Shown here: positions 5,984-19,780 of the stretch, in pieces
How positions within the stretch are numbered: position 1 is the stretch's first letter
Layout of the letters: each line of letters begins with the position of its first letter
From: a virus
Virus record (IMG/VR): IMGVR_UViG_3300043409_000082
Location: 1-20,034 of that record
DNA length: 20,034 bases
Strand: one strand, 5' to 3'
Position numbers and translations under genes: made by a program
The notes under the pieces: model-generated
Told to the model about the DNA's origin: nothing
The model's database searches: none
What the model saw: the letters and a program-made list of their open reading frames with translations, nothing else

Positions 5984-7570
5984 TTATTGACTCAGCAATC
6001 CAGACCTATTTTGTTCTTGAGACATTTCACGCAATCTACGTTGTTCTAAAAGAGCAAGCCCAGGGTTTCCAAATAAACCTGGCAGTGCTCTTGTCATTGA
6101 ACCAGTTACTTGTGGGGTTTGACCAAGACGCATTTGATTACCTAATTCATCAATTGTTCCCATACGTCTTGACGTAGCCGCTGCTCTTGCCGCCATTGCT
6201 CCAGCGACCAATGGTATTCCTGTTACTGGGTCATAAACAATTAAACTTCCTGCTCCACCACCTGTAAACACACCAGTAGGTGCGAACTTTCCAAAAAATC
6301 TAAGTGTATTTTGAATGTTATCGCCTTGAGCCGCTTTTGTAATTGCATCTTGTTCTTCTTGGCTAAACATTGCCATTCGCTTGTCATTTTTTGCCAGTAA
6401 TCGCAATTGCGCTGTCAAAGCATTTTCAGCACCTGATTGTGTATATTTGTTTTTATCAATCTTTGCAGTCTCAAGCATATCGCTGAAGATTTCAGATTTC
6501 TTCATTTTTGAATAAGCATCACGGGCCTCTGCCCATGTTTTAGCAACTAATTTTGCATCGCCAGATTCAACTTTAGAAATATCAACCTTGGTTAAATAAT
6601 TATCAAACTTATCTAACAGAATAGAGGCTAATCGTTTTTCTTCTGGGTCAGTGCTTTTTTGTGCGCCACGAATCATTTTTCGCAATGCTTGCAACTCTAC
6701 CCAATCTTTTGGTTGTGTCGTGCTTGTTAATTCTTCAATAGCAGCAGAAACTTTTGGGTAGGCTTTTGGTGTATATCCTTCAGTCCTTAACTCTTTGGCA
6801 GCAGACTGCATATCAGTAACAAACTCAGGTGTTTTTAATTGAACACCCATTTTGTCTAAGGCTTGATAACGATCTTGTGCAATTTTAGCCATTGCTTCTT
6901 CAGAAACCGCTTGCTGTGTTGTTGGTTTTTTTAAGCCACCAATAAGAGATGTTCCAAGAGTTGTCAAAAAAGCAGCAATTGGATTATTGGTAGCTTCATA
7001 AACTGTTTGGCCTGTCATGGCTGCTGTAGGAGATACAACAGCTTGTGTTGCTGGCTCTGCTACAAGTTTAGAAGCAAATGCTCTACCAACTGGTGTTTGT
7101 GCTGTTGTTGCCAATGTAGAAAGTGCAGGTACTTGTTTACCAAGACTTGTTAGTGTCTCAAGTCCAGCACTTGCAACTCTTTCTGGTGCTGTTTGTTCTT
7201 CTGGCGGTGCTGGTACACCCGCCATTGTCATTAGATTTTGAATTCCTTTAGATGTAGGAATTAAGCGTTTATCTGTAAATGGTGATAACGCAGCATTTAT
7301 TAAACTACCCAAAGTATCTGCTGCTGGAACTATCATGCTTCCGGCAATTGTTCCAAATGGGCCGCCATATGATCCTACACCTGCACCAACAGCAGTTGGA
7401 GTAATTGCTCTTGCTACTATGCCAAGTCCTCGATCAAAAGCAGATGGTTTTTCTGTTGGTGTTTCAGGGCTTCCAGCAAGAAATCTAAGTGTAGATTCTG
7501 AAAGTGCTGAAAAATCATTGTTTGCAATAGATGTAAGTTCAGCATCTGTTAGTTTAGATAAGTCTGCCAT
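5984..7570 (-). CDS. probable internal virion / DNA-ejection protein (528 aa)
   Basis: A long alanine-rich protein with no enzyme motif. The N-terminus has small glycine-rich hydrophobic segments (residues ~57-96). The middle (about 215-400) is charged and strongly helical (ALRKMIRGAQKSTDPEEKR and similar). A second small-residue hydrophobic stretch (GVFTGGGAGSLIVYDPVTG) lies near 430-466. This mix of coiled helix and amphipathic glycine-rich segments is typical of podovirus ejection proteins that enter the host with the DNA. It is last of the three large virion genes and overlaps the previous stop by 1 nt (TAATG). The class is inferred from composition and position, not from a recognised domain. 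Confidence 0.6.
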   Translation of the reverse strand: MADLSKLTDAELTSIANNDFSALSESTLRFLAGSPETPTEKPSAFDRGLGIVARAITPTAVGAGVGSYGGPFGTIAGSMIVPAADTLGSLINAALSPFTDKRLIPTSKGIQNLMTMAGVPAPPEEQTAPERVASAGLETLTSLGKQVPALSTLATTAQTPVGRAFASKLVAEPATQAVVSPTAAMTGQTVYEATNNPIAAFLTTLGTSLIGGLKKPTTQQAVSEEAMAKIAQDRYQALDKMGVQLKTPEFVTDMQSAAKELRTEGYTPKAYPKVSAAIEELTSTTQPKDWVELQALRKMIRGAQKSTDPEEKRLASILLDKFDNYLTKVDISKVESGDAKLVAKTWAEARDAYSKMKKSEIFSDMLETAKIDKNKYTQSGAENALTAQLRLLAKNDKRMAMFSQEEQDAITKAAQGDNIQNTLRFFGKFAPTGVFTGGGAGSLIVYDPVTGIPLVAGAMAARAAATSRRMGTIDELGNQMRLGQTPQVTGSMTRALPGLFGNPGLALLEQRRLREMSQEQNRSGLLSQ

Positions 7571-9144
7571 TATTTACCCCTTTTGGCTAATTCTGCTTTG
7601 GCTTGTGCTGCTAAATCTCCACCAGATAAAGACGGACTAGGCAATGTCATTTGCGGAGATAAAGCCTCAAGTGCAGATTTACTATATCCACCAGCGGCAG
7701 CGGCCTTTGTTATCTTTTCAAATGCTCGTTGAGCCGCTGAAGCTTGTCGTTCTAAGTTTGCTTGTGCTTGTGGCCCACTCATACCAGGAGTCACAATTGC
7801 CCTATCAAATTCTGCTTTTTCAGTGTTTGTCAATGCAGCACCAAATAAATCGTTTCTTATTTGATTTACTTGATTTTGATAAGTCTGCCACCATTGACCA
7901 AATTCAATGCTCTTTGGATCACTTGACCGCAAAGCAATTGTGATTGCTCCTTTGCCAAGCAGATCAGAACCAAACCCAACATAACTTTGCTTAAATGATG
8001 ATGATAAATTTGAAATATCAGAAACACCATTAGATTGCTTTGCTAATTTCTCCATTGATGGCAATGGAATTTGTTTACCATCAGCGGCAGCAATAGCTGC
8101 CTTTTGTGCCGCATCAATATGCAATTGAGTCATTTGTTGTTGCAATGCTCTTGAAGCTTCCATTCCAGCCAATGCCGCAACCTTTAATCCCTGATTAGCT
8201 TCAGTATTTACAGCTTGATTGTTTATAGTCGTTAAATGCTGCATTGCTTTGTCTTGATCATCTGGGTCTAATCTTCCCCAGCTTTTAGCCAAAACTTGAG
8301 CATATGGAACAACTGTGGAGTGAACACCTTTTGCATCAATTAGTGAAGAAATTGGGTTTTCTGTAGATACAGCTTGTTGATCTCCACTTGGGTTTGTAAA
8401 AGACCATCCCTGCGCTGTTCTTTGTGCAAGCTTTTCGCCCTTTTTAAAGACTCCACCAATTGCAACTGGTTCTTTTCCTTGTTCAATTTTGTACCAAATA
8501 TCACCAGCTTTTTCATACTTTGGCTCGTTATAAGCTTGAGCAGTTCTTCCAGCTTGCAGTGCCGCATAACCTGGCGCACCCATAGCTTGAAGAGGTATAG
8601 CAACTCTGTTAATGTCGTAACTTGGTGCAACAGCAGCAATGTTTCTTGCAGGTTCTAAATAAGATGTATCTGCTGCTTGATCTACAACAACGCTTTCAGG
8701 AATTGTCTGCTCTGGAGTGCCTGGGCGATATGCGCCTTGTCGAATTTGCTCAACCATTGCAGCCTGTCTCTGCGTCTGCTGAGATACAAGTCGGGCTTGC
8801 GCTTGATCAGCAACTGCTAACAATTTCATTGCCAATTCAGTGTTACCCATAGCATTAGCTTGTTGAGCCGCATTAGCAAGTGATTGAGGGTCTTGCAAGT
8901 TAATGCCTTTTAGCAATTCTGCTTGTTGTGTGATGCGCTGAAGTTGTGGATCTTCTATGCCCATAGCACCCGCAAAGCCTCGGCCTAGCTGACCAATGCC
9001 AGCACCTAACTGAGCACGAGCCGCAGCACCTGGGTCTAATTGAGCAAGGTCATATCCTTGCTTTAAATCTTGTTGATATTGCTGACGCTGATACATATCA
9101 GGAGTCATACCAAACAGACCCGCTACTATATTAGTTTCTGCCAT
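7570..9144 (-). CDS. probable internal virion / ejection protein (524 aa)
   Basis: A glutamine/alanine-rich helical protein. The first ~130 residues are rich in QQ and coiled (DMYQRQQYQQDLKQGYDLAQ). A middle domain has KAGDIWYKIEQGKEPVAIGG, a likely beta segment. The C-terminal third contains the motif RNDLFGAALTNTEKAEFDRA (about residues 429-448), which I associate with large podovirus structural proteins. AAGGA lies six bases before ATG 9144. It sits between two other large virion proteins in the position of the T7 gp14-gp16 group. An internal or ejected protein is the best guess; no catalytic motif is seen. Confidence 0.62.
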   Translation of the reverse strand: MAETNIVAGLFGMTPDMYQRQQYQQDLKQGYDLAQLDPGAAARAQLGAGIGQLGRGFAGAMGIEDPQLQRITQQAELLKGINLQDPQSLANAAQQANAMGNTELAMKLLAVADQAQARLVSQQTQRQAAMVEQIRQGAYRPGTPEQTIPESVVVDQAADTSYLEPARNIAAVAPSYDINRVAIPLQAMGAPGYAALQAGRTAQAYNEPKYEKAGDIWYKIEQGKEPVAIGGVFKKGEKLAQRTAQGWSFTNPSGDQQAVSTENPISSLIDAKGVHSTVVPYAQVLAKSWGRLDPDDQDKAMQHLTTINNQAVNTEANQGLKVAALAGMEASRALQQQMTQLHIDAAQKAAIAAADGKQIPLPSMEKLAKQSNGVSDISNLSSSFKQSYVGFGSDLLGKGAITIALRSSDPKSIEFGQWWQTYQNQVNQIRNDLFGAALTNTEKAEFDRAIVTPGMSGPQAQANLERQASAAQRAFEKITKAAAAGGYSKSALEALSPQMTLPSPSLSGGDLAAQAKAELAKRGK

Positions 9145-9153
9145 GATGAATCC

Positions 9154-11436
9154 TTAATAATAAAGAGGGCCACTAAAATTAGGATCAATAGGCAGTCCAT
9201 ATTCTCCCGCTTGAATTGAATTAGGCGTGAAGCCTGTTGTCAAACTTCCTTGGGGAGTGTTCCCAAACAAACCGCTAAAAACATTATTCAATGACTGACC
9301 AAACATAGCATTTGGATTACCTGCCGCCATCAATGCTTGAGCGTAAGGATTAGCCGTAGCGTTAGCACTGGTTGCCAAGTTAGTGCTTAGTTGAGCACCT
9401 GTTAAGCCTAATTGACCTTGTCTTGCACCCGCTGTAGACGTTTGTTGAGCAAGAGCATTACTCATATTAAATGGTTGTTGACCAAGTGTCTCCAAGTTCT
9501 GTACTTGTCCCAAAGCAGTTGTGTAAGGCGTGTAAGCCTGTTGCTGACCGCCATAGTAGCTACCCAGAGCATTAGCACCTTGACCAAGCAAGCCAGCCCC
9601 ATACAACACATTTTGCTGACCAAATTGCTGTGCATTAGCCGCAAGTCTTGCATCCTCTTGAATCTTGGCATTCATAAATGCTTGCAACTCAGGTGTAGTA
9701 GCACCCAAGTTACCGCCTTGAGCCACAGAAAGACCGCCACGGCCTTGTTGCTGTAGTTTGTTTTGTAAGAAGGCTAACTCTTGTTCACGACCTGGTGCTA
9801 GAAGTGCCAATTGTGATTTCATGTAATTGCTTGCAACATCTTCAGGATTCTGAGCAAGATACTTATTACCCAACCCAAACAAACTCTGTGCGCCTGTTTG
9901 AAGAGGTGCAAATGCTTGTTGTGCGCCTTCTGCTTGTTGCAGACCAGACTCAGCCAATTTGACCAATCGATCTTGAGCATTCTTAGCTTGTGGGTCTAAC
10001 GTATATCCCGCACTTGTCATTTGACCCGTTACTGGATCATAGCCAAACTGTGAAGTACCAAACCTTGTAGTCATGCCAACTGGTCTAAATGCCGCAGACT
10101 GTTTAGCAGCAGCAGTTTCAGCATCAATCATTGCTTGCGCTTTTTGAGCCGCCTCTTTAGATGCTTTCTGTTGAAGTAAGCTACCAGCAGTTGTTAGGCC
10201 GCCAGAAAACAGATTACTAAGGTTTGTTTTATTGCCACTAAGAGTATTTAAAAGACCCGTACCTAGAGTTGTTCCAGCTATTTTACTTAGATCAACAACT
10301 TTACTTAAATCAGTTACTTTACTAAGATCAGTAACCTTGCTCAAGTCGGTTACCTTGCTCAAATCAGTAACCTTGCTCAAGTCGGTTACCTTGCTCAAAT
10401 CAGTAACCTTGCTCAAGTCGGTTACTTTGCTTAAATCGGTAGCCTTACTTAAGTCTGTTACTTTGCTTAAATCGGTAGCCTTACTTAGGTCTGTAACTTT
10501 ACTTAGATCAGTTACAGTGCCACCATTAGTCAGTAATCCACCAGTTAAAGTACCTGCCGCCAAACCACCTAGTTGCTCAGCAAGTGTCAAAGCACCCAAA
10601 GTACCACCAGAACCGCCAAGAGACATATCTAGTTGAGTCAACTCAGATAATGTCAATCCTGTGTTGCCAATAGTTCCTGCTGCACCAACATTGGCTAAAG
10701 AACCACCAAGGTAGTCTGCTCCCGCACCAGCACCCGCATTCAATGCTTCAAATGCTGATCCCGCACCAGTACCAGATAACAATCCCGCATCTGCGAGTGC
10801 CTCACCTGCAAATGCTGAAGCACCTGTTGCACCACCTGCCGCACCACCTAACAAGCCTTCAAAACCACCTAAACCATATACCGCACCCGCCACAGCCGCC
10901 AGTTTAAGAATGTCATTTTTTAAAGTGCTAGAAGATGCGCCTTGAGTATAGAAAACAGGCTTACCAGATTCATCAAAGTTAACACCAAAACCAGTATTAC
11001 CTTTTCCTTCGTAAGAACCAGACCATAGATTGTCTTTAGTTCTCTCACCATAACCAGAGATAAGTTTATCTCCTGTCATTACATTGATGATTCCTGTATC
11101 ACCTTTGGCAACCTGAGTAATGTCTGTTACACCACTCTTAGCCAACTCATCAGCCATATACAAGGCGGCTTTTTCAGGAGGTAATCCACCTGTCCACGCT
11201 TGAGTAGTTCCTTGAGAAAGAATCTGATCCGCTAATTTATTGACATTTTCAGCCGTGTAAACAGAGGGAGCAGCTAATTTATATCGAGATTGCACATCTG
11301 CAACTGGTAAGCCAACAGCTTGAGCCATTTGAGCAGGAGTGACATTGTATGTCTGCATTGCAGTTGCAATTTGCTCATCGCTCATCTCAGGATTCTTGAG
11401 CAAGAAATCCCGAATTTGTTGACTTGTTATTGCCAT
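9154..11436 (-). CDS. large repeat-containing virion protein (760 aa)
   Basis: Four parts are visible. (1) A small helical N-terminal domain, QQIRDFLLKNPEMSDEQIA, continuing to MAQAVGLP, resembles short helical modules in Burkholderiales phage virion proteins. (2) A glycine/alanine-rich region of low complexity (about 175-300). (3) Thirteen tandem copies of a T-D-L-S-K-V/A hexapeptide (about 308-385). (4) A glutamine/alanine-rich helical C-terminal half ending in GLPIDPNFSGPLYY. The composition and the neighbouring ejection-type proteins suggest an internal or tail-associated virion protein. AAGGA precedes ATG 11436. There is no enzyme motif, and the exact role is unknown. Confidence 0.62.
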   Translation of the reverse strand: MAITSQQIRDFLLKNPEMSDEQIATAMQTYNVTPAQMAQAVGLPVADVQSRYKLAAPSVYTAENVNKLADQILSQGTTQAWTGGLPPEKAALYMADELAKSGVTDITQVAKGDTGIINVMTGDKLISGYGERTKDNLWSGSYEGKGNTGFGVNFDESGKPVFYTQGASSSTLKNDILKLAAVAGAVYGLGGFEGLLGGAAGGATGASAFAGEALADAGLLSGTGAGSAFEALNAGAGAGADYLGGSLANVGAAGTIGNTGLTLSELTQLDMSLGGSGGTLGALTLAEQLGGLAAGTLTGGLLTNGGTVTDLSKVTDLSKATDLSKVTDLSKATDLSKVTDLSKVTDLSKVTDLSKVTDLSKVTDLSKVTDLSKVTDLSKVVDLSKIAGTTLGTGLLNTLSGNKTNLSNLFSGGLTTAGSLLQQKASKEAAQKAQAMIDAETAAAKQSAAFRPVGMTTRFGTSQFGYDPVTGQMTSAGYTLDPQAKNAQDRLVKLAESGLQQAEGAQQAFAPLQTGAQSLFGLGNKYLAQNPEDVASNYMKSQLALLAPGREQELAFLQNKLQQQGRGGLSVAQGGNLGATTPELQAFMNAKIQEDARLAANAQQFGQQNVLYGAGLLGQGANALGSYYGGQQQAYTPYTTALGQVQNLETLGQQPFNMSNALAQQTSTAGARQGQLGLTGAQLSTNLATSANATANPYAQALMAAGNPNAMFGQSLNNVFSGLFGNTPQGSLTTGFTPNSIQAGEYGLPIDPNFSGPLYY
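10283..10516 (-). repeat. 18-bp tandem repeat (13 copies) with 36-bp higher-order units
   Basis: Thirteen in-frame 18-bp units, each encoding T/V-D-L-S-K-V/A. Synonymous bases alternate: units around 10337-10426 alternate two variants (AAGTCG versus AAATCA), and those at 10427-10498 alternate another pair. The array therefore grew by copying 36-bp pairs as well as single units. All units keep frame. Confidence 0.93.
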
Positions 11437-14355: not shown

Positions 14356-15898
14356 AAGCTGTTCTGCCATCTTTGGCTTGAATTTCAATCTTTTGCAAAG
14401 ACAATGCAACATCATTGATGGTTGTCTCATAGCCAGTCTGGACAATCTTTCCCGCACCAGAGGCATTGGCTCTTAAAGTCTTAATTGGAATACCACTTGT
14501 GTACTCAGCAGTGCCATATTCAGCAGTTCCATACTCATAACTCACTTGGGTAGGGATATAGACATTCTGTGCTTCATAAGCACCAGAATAATCAAACCCC
14601 CAATTGATCGTTAAATACTGGTTTGAGCCACCAATCACAATTGCTGAAATAGTCTTTAGAACAGAAATCTGGTTAGGATTGCCAAGGTCAGCATTGTTTG
14701 TGTAATAGGCAAATCGGTAAGTGGATGTGTCATCTAAGTAACCACCATACTTGCCGATATACCCATTCTTGCCAATGTACAAGTCACCATTTCTGAGTGA
14801 CCGCAAAGATGTTGGTGCAATAGAGTCCCACTTAGTGACCCGTGAAGAACCATCTTGCAAAGACTGCTTTGTATCAAAGCAATAGACTTGGAAAGTAGTG
14901 GGTAGCACAAGCAAATAAAACGCTTCTTTTTCTGAATAAACAGATTTCAGATCAGCTAATACTTCACTTGCCAAAGATGAGTTCAGATCAAAGCGAACAT
15001 TCTTGGACAAGTCTCTCAATGGTGCAGACTTCTCTTGAATAGTCCTCATCAATGAGCGAACACCTGAGTCTGACAAGAACACCACATCAGAGCCAATGCT
15101 TTGAATCGTATCTCTTGCGATACACCCAATTGAGCCTACTGTGTCGGACAGAACTAGAGAGGCGGGTGTGGAAGCACCAGAGTAAACAAGAATCTGCCGT
15201 TTACCAAAGATGAACAAGAAATCATTGTGCGCTGCCAAACCCATTACTTCATCAGCACCATTAGGCCAAACCCGTGAAACATCAAGTGAGCCTGAAGTGC
15301 CGCCTGACCAAATATGACCCGCAATCAGATCAGAGAATGTAATGGTAACTTTGTCTGTAGAAGTGTTAGCCACCCACAAACGACCAAAAGCCGAGATGGC
15401 AATGTTGGCTAAAGGAACAGTTCCTGTGTAGCCTGTTTTCTCGGACACTCTGCGATAAGTTGAAGTGCTTACAGCGGGGTCATAGATGAGTGGATCGTGA
15501 CCAGTTTGAAAGAAATAAGCTATGCCATTCAAAGATGCACATTGCCAATTAGATGCCGTAATCGTTGGGGCTGTACCACCCCCCCCATAGGTCAATTCAG
15601 TTACCGCATTGGAAGTACCTAGCTTAAATAGCTTGTTATTCCCTGCAAACAGAACAGTCAGACTGCCATCGGTCTGGACTAACTCATGGATGACACCCAC
15701 ATCATTAGCACCAAGAGTACCTGATGAAGCGTTAACTCTATCCCAACCCTTCCTAGCACCGATCCGACCATACTGGTCAAGAATGCAGTTAGTCGCAACC
15801 AAAGCAAAGCCAGCCCCTAAATCAAGGGGCGAGTCTTCAGTGTTCAGGCCGTAGAAGCCTGGTGCTGAGAGACTGTAACTTTGTAAAGGTTTAGACAT
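14354..15898 (-). CDS. tail nozzle / tail tubular protein B-like (gp12-like)
   Basis: A 514-residue beta-rich protein with no membrane segment. The N-terminus ([20 protein letters not shown], then [20 protein letters not shown]) is the typical opening of short-tail nozzle and stabilisation proteins. The body has repeated beta-strand motifs suggesting a propeller ([51 protein letters not shown]). It follows the adaptor gene (TAATG overlap) and precedes the tail fibre, matching the gp11-gp12 order of T7-like phages. It would form the tail nozzle through which DNA exits. A direct YGTAE repeat occurs near the C-terminus (about 14505-14535). Confidence 0.8.
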
Positions 15899-18817: not shown

Positions 18818-19780
18818 TTAGGCTGGAACTGCTAACGCATATGCGCTAGAAGACAAAGCTGCACCAGTTGAGGCGGCTGCACGAAGTGCTTTCACACCAT
18901 ACAAAGTATCAGATGTAAACAAAGTAGCCAAGTAATCTTGCTTGTACTGAGTCTGTGAACGGATACCAATTTGCTCAACCAGAACCATAGAGTCCTTGTG
19001 ACCCATCAAGCAGATACGATCAGTGGTGGAGTTACCAGCACCAGTATCAGCATTGCTAGATGTAAACACAGGAATACCATACAGATTACCGATTTCACCA
19101 GTACGGATGGCATTACCATTGCCCACAAAAGCCTGTTCTGTGTAACGGGAAAGACCCATCAACGTATTGCGGCTTGAAGGAGGAATGATAAAGAAACGAT
19201 TGTCCATAGGAGTATCGTTGTCATCCAAACGCTGAATGGTTCTGCGAATAGCGGCATCAGTCAAAGCGGAAGCATTGGATGAAGAGCTATTGTAAGCAGT
19301 CGTACCATCACCACCAATAAAGGCTTTGCTTGTTGCAGTAGCAGTTGCGTAGTCGTTAGTACCGACAGTAGCACCATTGAATGCACGACCCAATTGGATC
19401 AAGCTAGTGTCTACTTGCTTGGCAAGCGCATAGCCCGCATCAGCAGTGTAGAACTGGCGCAAGCTGTTTAAGGCTTGTGCTTCAACGATGTCCTCAATGA
19501 AACGTGAATATTCAAAGTGTTGGTTAATAGACACTTGAATTTCTGTCTCAGTATCGGCAATCAGAGTAACGGCAGTAGATGCCGCTTTTGCTGAAGCGTT
19601 ACCACGGGTAGGTGCGGGAATGTGAACTACATCGCCCTTCTTACCTTTGAAGTTCATCTTCATTACAATGTTAGCCAGAACAAGATTCTTCTTGTATGAG
19701 GCTATGATTTCATCACTCCAAATTTCGGGGATGAACGTGTCTGCGGTGGCTTTTGTCACCAGTGGTGTTGGATATGCCAT
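18818..19780 (-). CDS. major capsid protein (HK97 fold, T7-like)
   Basis: A 320-residue coat protein. The N-terminus (FIPEIWSDEIIASYKKNLVL, then ANIVMKMNFKGKKGDVVHIP) is the classic opening of T7-type and related podovirus capsid proteins. Further landmarks are SINQHFEYSRFIEDIVEAQA (E-loop to spine-helix region), DDNDTPMDNRFFIIPPSSRN, and GNLYGIPVFTSSN (A-domain). AGGAG lies eight bases before ATG 19780. The scaffold C-terminus is immediately upstream and an intrinsic terminator immediately downstream. It forms the icosahedral shell; identification is firm. Confidence 0.93.
   Translation of the reverse strand: MAYPTPLVTKATADTFIPEIWSDEIIASYKKNLVLANIVMKMNFKGKKGDVVHIPAPTRGNASAKAASTAVTLIADTETEIQVSINQHFEYSRFIEDIVEAQALNSLRQFYTADAGYALAKQVDTSLIQLGRAFNGATVGTNDYATATATSKAFIGGDGTTAYNSSSSNASALTDAAIRRTIQRLDDNDTPMDNRFFIIPPSSRNTLMGLSRYTEQAFVGNGNAIRTGEIGNLYGIPVFTSSNADTGAGNSTTDRICLMGHKDSMVLVEQIGIRSQTQYKQDYLATLFTSDTLYGVKALRAAASTGAALSSSAYALAVPA

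Follow-up and report, generated by a model that had tools for sequence, protein, structure and literature searches.

The window, which is the whole stretch of DNA analysed, comprises an entire virus record of 20,034 bases, and its array-bearing protein belongs to a freshwater phage. The minus-strand gene set includes the capsid gene, an SU10-type adaptor, a 514-aa structural gene, an S74 fibre, three large genes and the lysis genes. Of the 241 phage records matched by the capsid protein, 211 belong to mycobacteriophages; the top-ranked matches were the cyanophages CHP58, A-4L and Pf-WMP3, with 30–34% identity across 71–79% of the protein. The top PHROG label of the 514-aa structural gene is 'amidase', the label 'virion structural protein' also being assigned, and from its position we infer that its product is the nozzle. 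A short 15-bp tandem repeat (14502–14537, 2.4 copies) lies inside the same gene.

The array is carried by the first of the three large genes, which are located between the fibre and lysis genes, with the fibre gene separating them from the other tail genes. By this order the gene lies in the structural block, which supports the preliminary description on this point. The coordinates of the features are collected in Table 1. The ORF downstream of the array gene was present for 106 of the 115 relatives compared, and the likeness of its start was judged from eight starts. The label of phrog_21712, matched by the third large gene, is major head protein, yet the capsid gene of the window is located at 18818–19780; the label may be wrong.

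Table 1. Position and strand of the array gene, its parts and the two genes following it (window coordinates).
Feature	Position	Strand	Basis
Array-holding gene, 760 aa, first of three large genes	9154..11436	-	ORF
Next gene	7570..9144	-	Relatives show a neighbour with the same start (MAExNIVAGLFG-like)
Third large gene of the run	5984..7570	-	phrog_21712 match, E 4.1e-20
N-terminal helical domain, weakly HTH-like, residues 1–57	11266..11436	-	Pfam HTH_26 and ParB fold match
Hexapeptide array, 13 copies, residues 309–386	10279..10512	-	18-bp in-frame units
First 36-bp block, copies 2–5	10423..10494	-	TRF, copy comparison, codon identity
Second 36-bp block, copies 6–10	10333..10422	-	TRF, copy comparison, codon identity, 63-bp exact direct repeat
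Conserved C-terminal core, about residues 401–700	9337..10236	-	Alignment of 19 relatives

Twelve of the 13 hexapeptides read TDLSK[V/A] (ten with V, two with A) and the thirteenth VDLSKI. The preliminary description had reported 13 in-frame copies of T-D-L-S-K-V/A at 10283–10516; all 13 are in frame, one departs from the formula, and the array, which is real, lies about 4 nt lower. The protein repeat score is 60, the maximum of 100 shuffles being 6.0. Both 18-bp and 36-bp periods were called by TRF, the latter with 87% matches and a score of 252. Among copies 2–5, copy 3 equals copy 5 and copies 2 and 4 differ by one base; among copies 6–10, copies 6, 8 and 10 are identical, as are 7 and 9. 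Codon identity between copies two apart is 0.68 versus 0.41 in within-array shuffles (0 of 500 as high), and between adjacent copies 0.38 versus 0.40. The alternation in pairs that had been described, with copying of 36-bp blocks superimposed on the 18-bp units, is thus borne out for nine of the 13 copies (2–10), copies 1, 11, 12 and 13 lying outside the blocks. Since the silent sites of most arrays are near saturation, most arrays are old and the block copying is local and recent. An antisense ORF on the plus strand (10232–10636) mirrors the array; nothing in its favour was found and it was discarded.

Relatives were collected by IMG/VR scans with the whole protein and with the C-terminal core alignment, 80 loci being kept per scan. 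The 115 distinct proteins with enough upstream sequence are the nearest 115 of at least 516 relatives. Among these nearest 115, a strong short-period array (score ≥15) was found in 52 and a score of ≥10 in 69, while 46 scored <10 and contain no clear array, which counts against a cassette reading. The position of the array is largely constant: 39 of the 52 strong arrays end 50–70 residues ahead of the conserved FRPxGMTTRFG (FRPxG motif) of the core. The units occupying this slot are TDLSKV, GT, GTGV, GTGL, PPVV, PPVI, APPVV, TPPVV, TTPPVV, PPTGV, TTGA, NTALTNTAA, GSTL, TAGSTLAN, KAAADAAAA-like, PAVTSTI, the 16-residue AFELANAGASALTDLG and an 18-residue unit. Relatives therefore replace the unit itself and not just the number of units, a point that the preliminary description had missed.

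Outside this gene family such arrays are rare. Comparable arrays occurred in 3 of 411 other ORFs of the same loci versus 49 of 82 family genes, and the three exceptions are a family gene cut short (L084) and one gene seen in two contigs (L019 and L020). A scan with the DNA pattern of tandem TDLSK[V/A] matched four contigs, each in the family gene at the slot, with L084 repeating L083. For 113 of the 114 proteins examined, the slot has an entropy under all C-core values (medians 2.24 and 3.28 bits, respectively), and across the 114 some 90% of its residues are T, G, A, P, V or L. Charged residues are rare there, with D at 0.8% and K at 0.7%, which makes TDLSKV one of few charged units. Three relatives (L041, L085 and L123) carry, upstream of the slot, a 16-residue array, AFELANAGASALTDLG; in L085 it runs into FELANAGSSALTDLSKV, as if the hexapeptide had grown out of the end of the 16-residue unit. 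The N-terminal modules also vary among the relatives looked at (L085 and L004), L085 having two copies of the HTH-like domain, and the last 10–40 residues of the family occur in unrelated alternatives (NYYGNQDLGLYL, PSTGEYFGSLYF and FGGLFS), which form a second exchange point. No family member was confirmed in bacterial genomes, where 50 stretches matched a pattern.

The exchange of the segment was assessed on a C-core tree and on close pairs. On the tree (72 rows), whose labels were assigned by eye with weak arrays included, the array label changes 33 times, the minimum possible being 8 and the shuffled mean 46.8. None of 200 shuffles gave 33 or fewer changes; some clustering therefore remains and exchange is not free. 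Among 66 pairs with ≥85% identity in core DNA (neither these pairs nor the tree rows are independent), upstream homology reaches a median of 358 codons in the 33 pairs sharing a signature and ends at a median of 46 codons in the 33 pairs with different signatures. In ten of the latter, homology picks up again just upstream of both arrays. For instance, L030 (PPVV) and L022 (LTP/AAT, weakly periodic) each have a segment of 137 bp unrelated to that of the other, yet their flanks match at 96.2% identity upstream (769 bp) and 89.5% downstream (1870 bp); the periodicity score of the L022 segment, 7.0, equals its own shuffle maximum, which weakens this example of a clean swap. L022 and L035 likewise have matching flanks around unrelated segments of 134 and 62 bp. 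A link between array type and the downstream gene was not detected (permutation P 0.09), and the link to the C-core is weak (P 0.046). Array type tracks the core only loosely, and near-identical flanks can carry different segments. As judged from these alignments, related phages trade the repeat segment whole.

The number of units varies as well, as the preliminary description had anticipated; the fixed copy number it had named as contrary evidence was looked for in the relatives and was not seen. The TDLSKV arrays comprise 13 copies in the window, 12 in L083, 12 in L086 and 8 in L085, and the repeat segment is 57 residues long in L030 but 33 in L035, two relatives with 97.5% identity in C-core DNA. 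Whole units can be gained and lost in frame, subject to assembly error. In L083 and L086, 11 of the 12 copies are nearest to the copy with the same index, and nucleotide differences amount to 7 of 216 in the array, 54 of 600 in the core and 31 of 180 upstream. The kept order and the few differences indicate that this array moved as one piece, with no ongoing homogenisation of its copies.

The window array has a pS of 0.98 and a pN of 0.06. Across 36 distinct arrays, three of which are the 16-residue arrays upstream of the slot (L041, L085, L123), the medians are 0.65 for pS and 0.098 for pN/pS, compared with a median pN/pS of 0.269 for the core pairs with pS >0.5 (3116 of 6441). The ratio is under the core median in 31 of the 36 arrays; the five above it (L148, L067, L071, L019 and L030) are mostly G-T types. 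In 45 copies of TDLSKV type, of which those of L083 and L086 come from close kin, D, L and K are invariant (45/45) while their codons vary (GAT 33, GAC 12; AAA 29, AAG 16; all six Leu codons), with exceptions at position 1 (three), position 4 (three) and position 6 (eight). The low pN is partly built in because the arrays were found by periodicity; the saturation of silent sites is not. With this ascertainment caveat, the peptide unit is under purifying selection as silent sites drift towards saturation, and the surviving units are constrained. Since silent changes are near saturation and the peptide hardly changes, it is the peptide that is selected, and a DNA-level role of the repeat, which we also considered, was rejected as unlikely. 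Codon homozygosity is below the prediction from the gene's own usage in 19 of 25 distinct arrays (Wilcoxon versus control segments, p 0.006), so that codon scrambling beyond random is weakly supported; the window array is unremarkable in this respect (P 0.39), and we claim saturation alone.

For the 760-aa protein no Pfam family scored over its cut-off, and the only match at E ≤ 0.01 was HTH_26 at residues 1–57 (E 0.0054, under the HTH_26 cut-off), a region that also matched ParB 6s6h_B (Z 5.2, rmsd 3.3, 55 aligned). The core alone gave no PHROG match and neither a phage record nor a PDB sequence at E ≤ 1. PHROG profiles 5070 and 7964, both of unknown function, match residues about 308–391 (E 6.4e-8 and 2e-6); this match is limited to the array and points to a likeness of repeat words rather than of whole proteins. 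NCBIfam matches to BAC and EntB, far below cut-offs and confined to the array, were dismissed, as was a match of the array to Brochothrix phage ADU4 on the strand opposite the annotated gene.

In the AlphaFold2 model of the full protein (pTM 0.33), residues 1–120 are confident (pLDDT 85–96) and the array shows a regular period-6 HHH--- pattern with pLDDT 67–86 over residues 311–380. AlphaFold2 is known for confident yet unrealistic solenoids on perfect repeats, according to the part of PMC11795689 available; the array model was therefore not used, and a solenoid form is unproven. The full-length model had no match in the PDB at E ≤ 0.001. Modelled alone (mean pLDDT 55), the core shows a helix, a beta hairpin and long helices, and the proteins that it matches with certainty are unnamed ones from uncultured phages. 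Proteins named as internal virion or DNA transfer proteins follow at E 0.04–0.08 amid tape measure, fibre and giant-virus proteins, and T7 chain 8e4g_a, with Z 7.6, is tied with unrelated helical chains.

The array was compared with named repeat classes. Its period is 6 and its unit contains no aromatic residue (W or F), which sets it apart from the 11-residue tape measure repeats. Leucine-rich repeats of the internalin kind have a period of about 22 residues; no Pfam repeat model matched at E ≤ 0.01, and internalin 4fmz, matched by phmmer at E 3.6e-11, owes this hit, in our reading, to short D-L-S-like words. No Pfam hexapeptide model of the left-handed beta-helix matched at E ≤ 0.01 either, and the AlphaFold2 model, unreliable here, lacks the strands that a beta-helix would need. 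Since no sequence homology to a named podovirus ejection protein (gp14/gp15/gp16 or gp7/gp20/gp16 type) was found, the protein is not classed as one; gene order and the weak fold matches suggest that it may work like one.

Different units at the same place in relatives make the repeat look like a traded cassette, each unit of which is kept by selection. We put at about 0.45 the probability that the TDLSKV array represents one allele of a cassette in a slot before the conserved core, forming a periodic, self-packing segment of a podovirus structural protein. The array is most likely a periodic structural segment, swapped whole, of an ejection-type virion protein. The evolutionary part of this account, the exchange of whole segments between related phages, is well supported by sequence comparison. 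Mechanistically, the protein would probably be ejected ahead of the DNA, and the periodic stretch of a homomultimer would pack with itself or with the matching stretch of neighbouring subunits. If only self-packing matters, one self-consistent periodic peptide could stand in for another. Silent drift would reduce the repetitiveness of the DNA and presumably stabilise it. Since the core matched no named protein by sequence, the ejection role is putative.

The main rival, above all for the G-T arrays, is a plain flexible spacer: the slot may need no more than low complexity and little charge to link the N-terminal modules with the core, repeats being the easiest route to such a linker. We consider this possible, if rather unlikely. 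Units of very different propensities share the slot (PPVV, GTGV, KAAADAAAA-like), low complexity is nearly universal there with the six-residue composition given above, and G-T arrays are more variable (pN/pS 0.40–0.63 in L019, L071 and L148). The constancy of D, L and K in every TDLSKV-type copy, with codons varying, is hard to square with a free spacer, and the pN/pS values under the core median in most arrays, read with their ascertainment, also speak against it. Assembly artefact or plain DNA slippage with no protein-level meaning could be suspected from the 63-bp exact repeat in the window and from the array-bearing relatives all being metagenome assemblies. Near-saturated silent sites, the finding of the slot again in many IMG metagenomes, and the distinctness of all 12 18-mers in each of L083 and L086 (with exact repeats of at most 20 and 15 bp) make this scarcely credible.

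Swaps might also be driven by recognition of the protein by the host or a resident phage, as in P22 SieA exclusion, whose escape changes map to the ejection proteins gp16 and gp20 according to the available part of PMC10883804. Exchange is rapid on the core tree and in the 66 close pairs, and single metagenomes (e.g., 3300020042 and 3300042549) hold several array types; against this, change inside arrays is suppressed rather than favoured, and neither a host nor an exclusion gene is known here. We regard such a moving target as very unlikely, and it would be compatible with the cassette explanation. A bolder form of the latter, in our view quite unlikely, is that the slot serves as a self-recognition segment, own-kind periodic peptides zipping between the subunits of a homomultimeric DNA-delivery conduit. 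Only subunits with the same cassette would then assemble well; any self-consistent unit would work, units would be strictly kept while new ones could sweep in, and foreign subunits would be kept out of a phage's own conduit in mixed infections.

A search of the literature found no account of such arrays in the ejection or internal virion proteins of phages, and the nearest known systems each share part of the picture. Like the 11-residue-repeat tape measure proteins (PMC3271669, available in part), the present ones are phage structural proteins with tandem peptide units whose copy number varies among relatives. Those described in that part have a single unit type with W or F every 11 residues, whereas here periods range from 2 to 18, there is no aromatic marker and the unit itself is replaced. 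As in Persi et al. (PMC5120217, available in part), tandem copies within one protein were compared by Nei-Gojobori. The repeat copies of that study diverge fast under strongly relaxed selection; unlike these cellular repeats, the arrays described here retain their peptide at near-saturated silent divergence. The main text of that source does not contain the word 'virus'.

A further parallel is P22 gp20 (PMC10883804, available in part), a structural-block protein with mosaic modules whose intragenic segments, though very different, can take one another's place, as they do here. Unlike gp20, for which the available part of that source describes no repeat arrays, the present family has them, and no sequence similarity was found between its core and any named ejection protein. 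For gp20 it is argued in the same part that extended subunits, if arranged side by side, could have any section exchanged for a very different one given self-self contacts. Such a rule would yield a slot of the present kind, open to unrelated periodic units of which each is strictly conserved. The slot makes the self-self rule for exchangeable ejection-protein modules testable, and its many unrelated repeat alphabets, traded whole, offer a natural series for asking whether an exact sequence or mere periodicity is needed in the virion.
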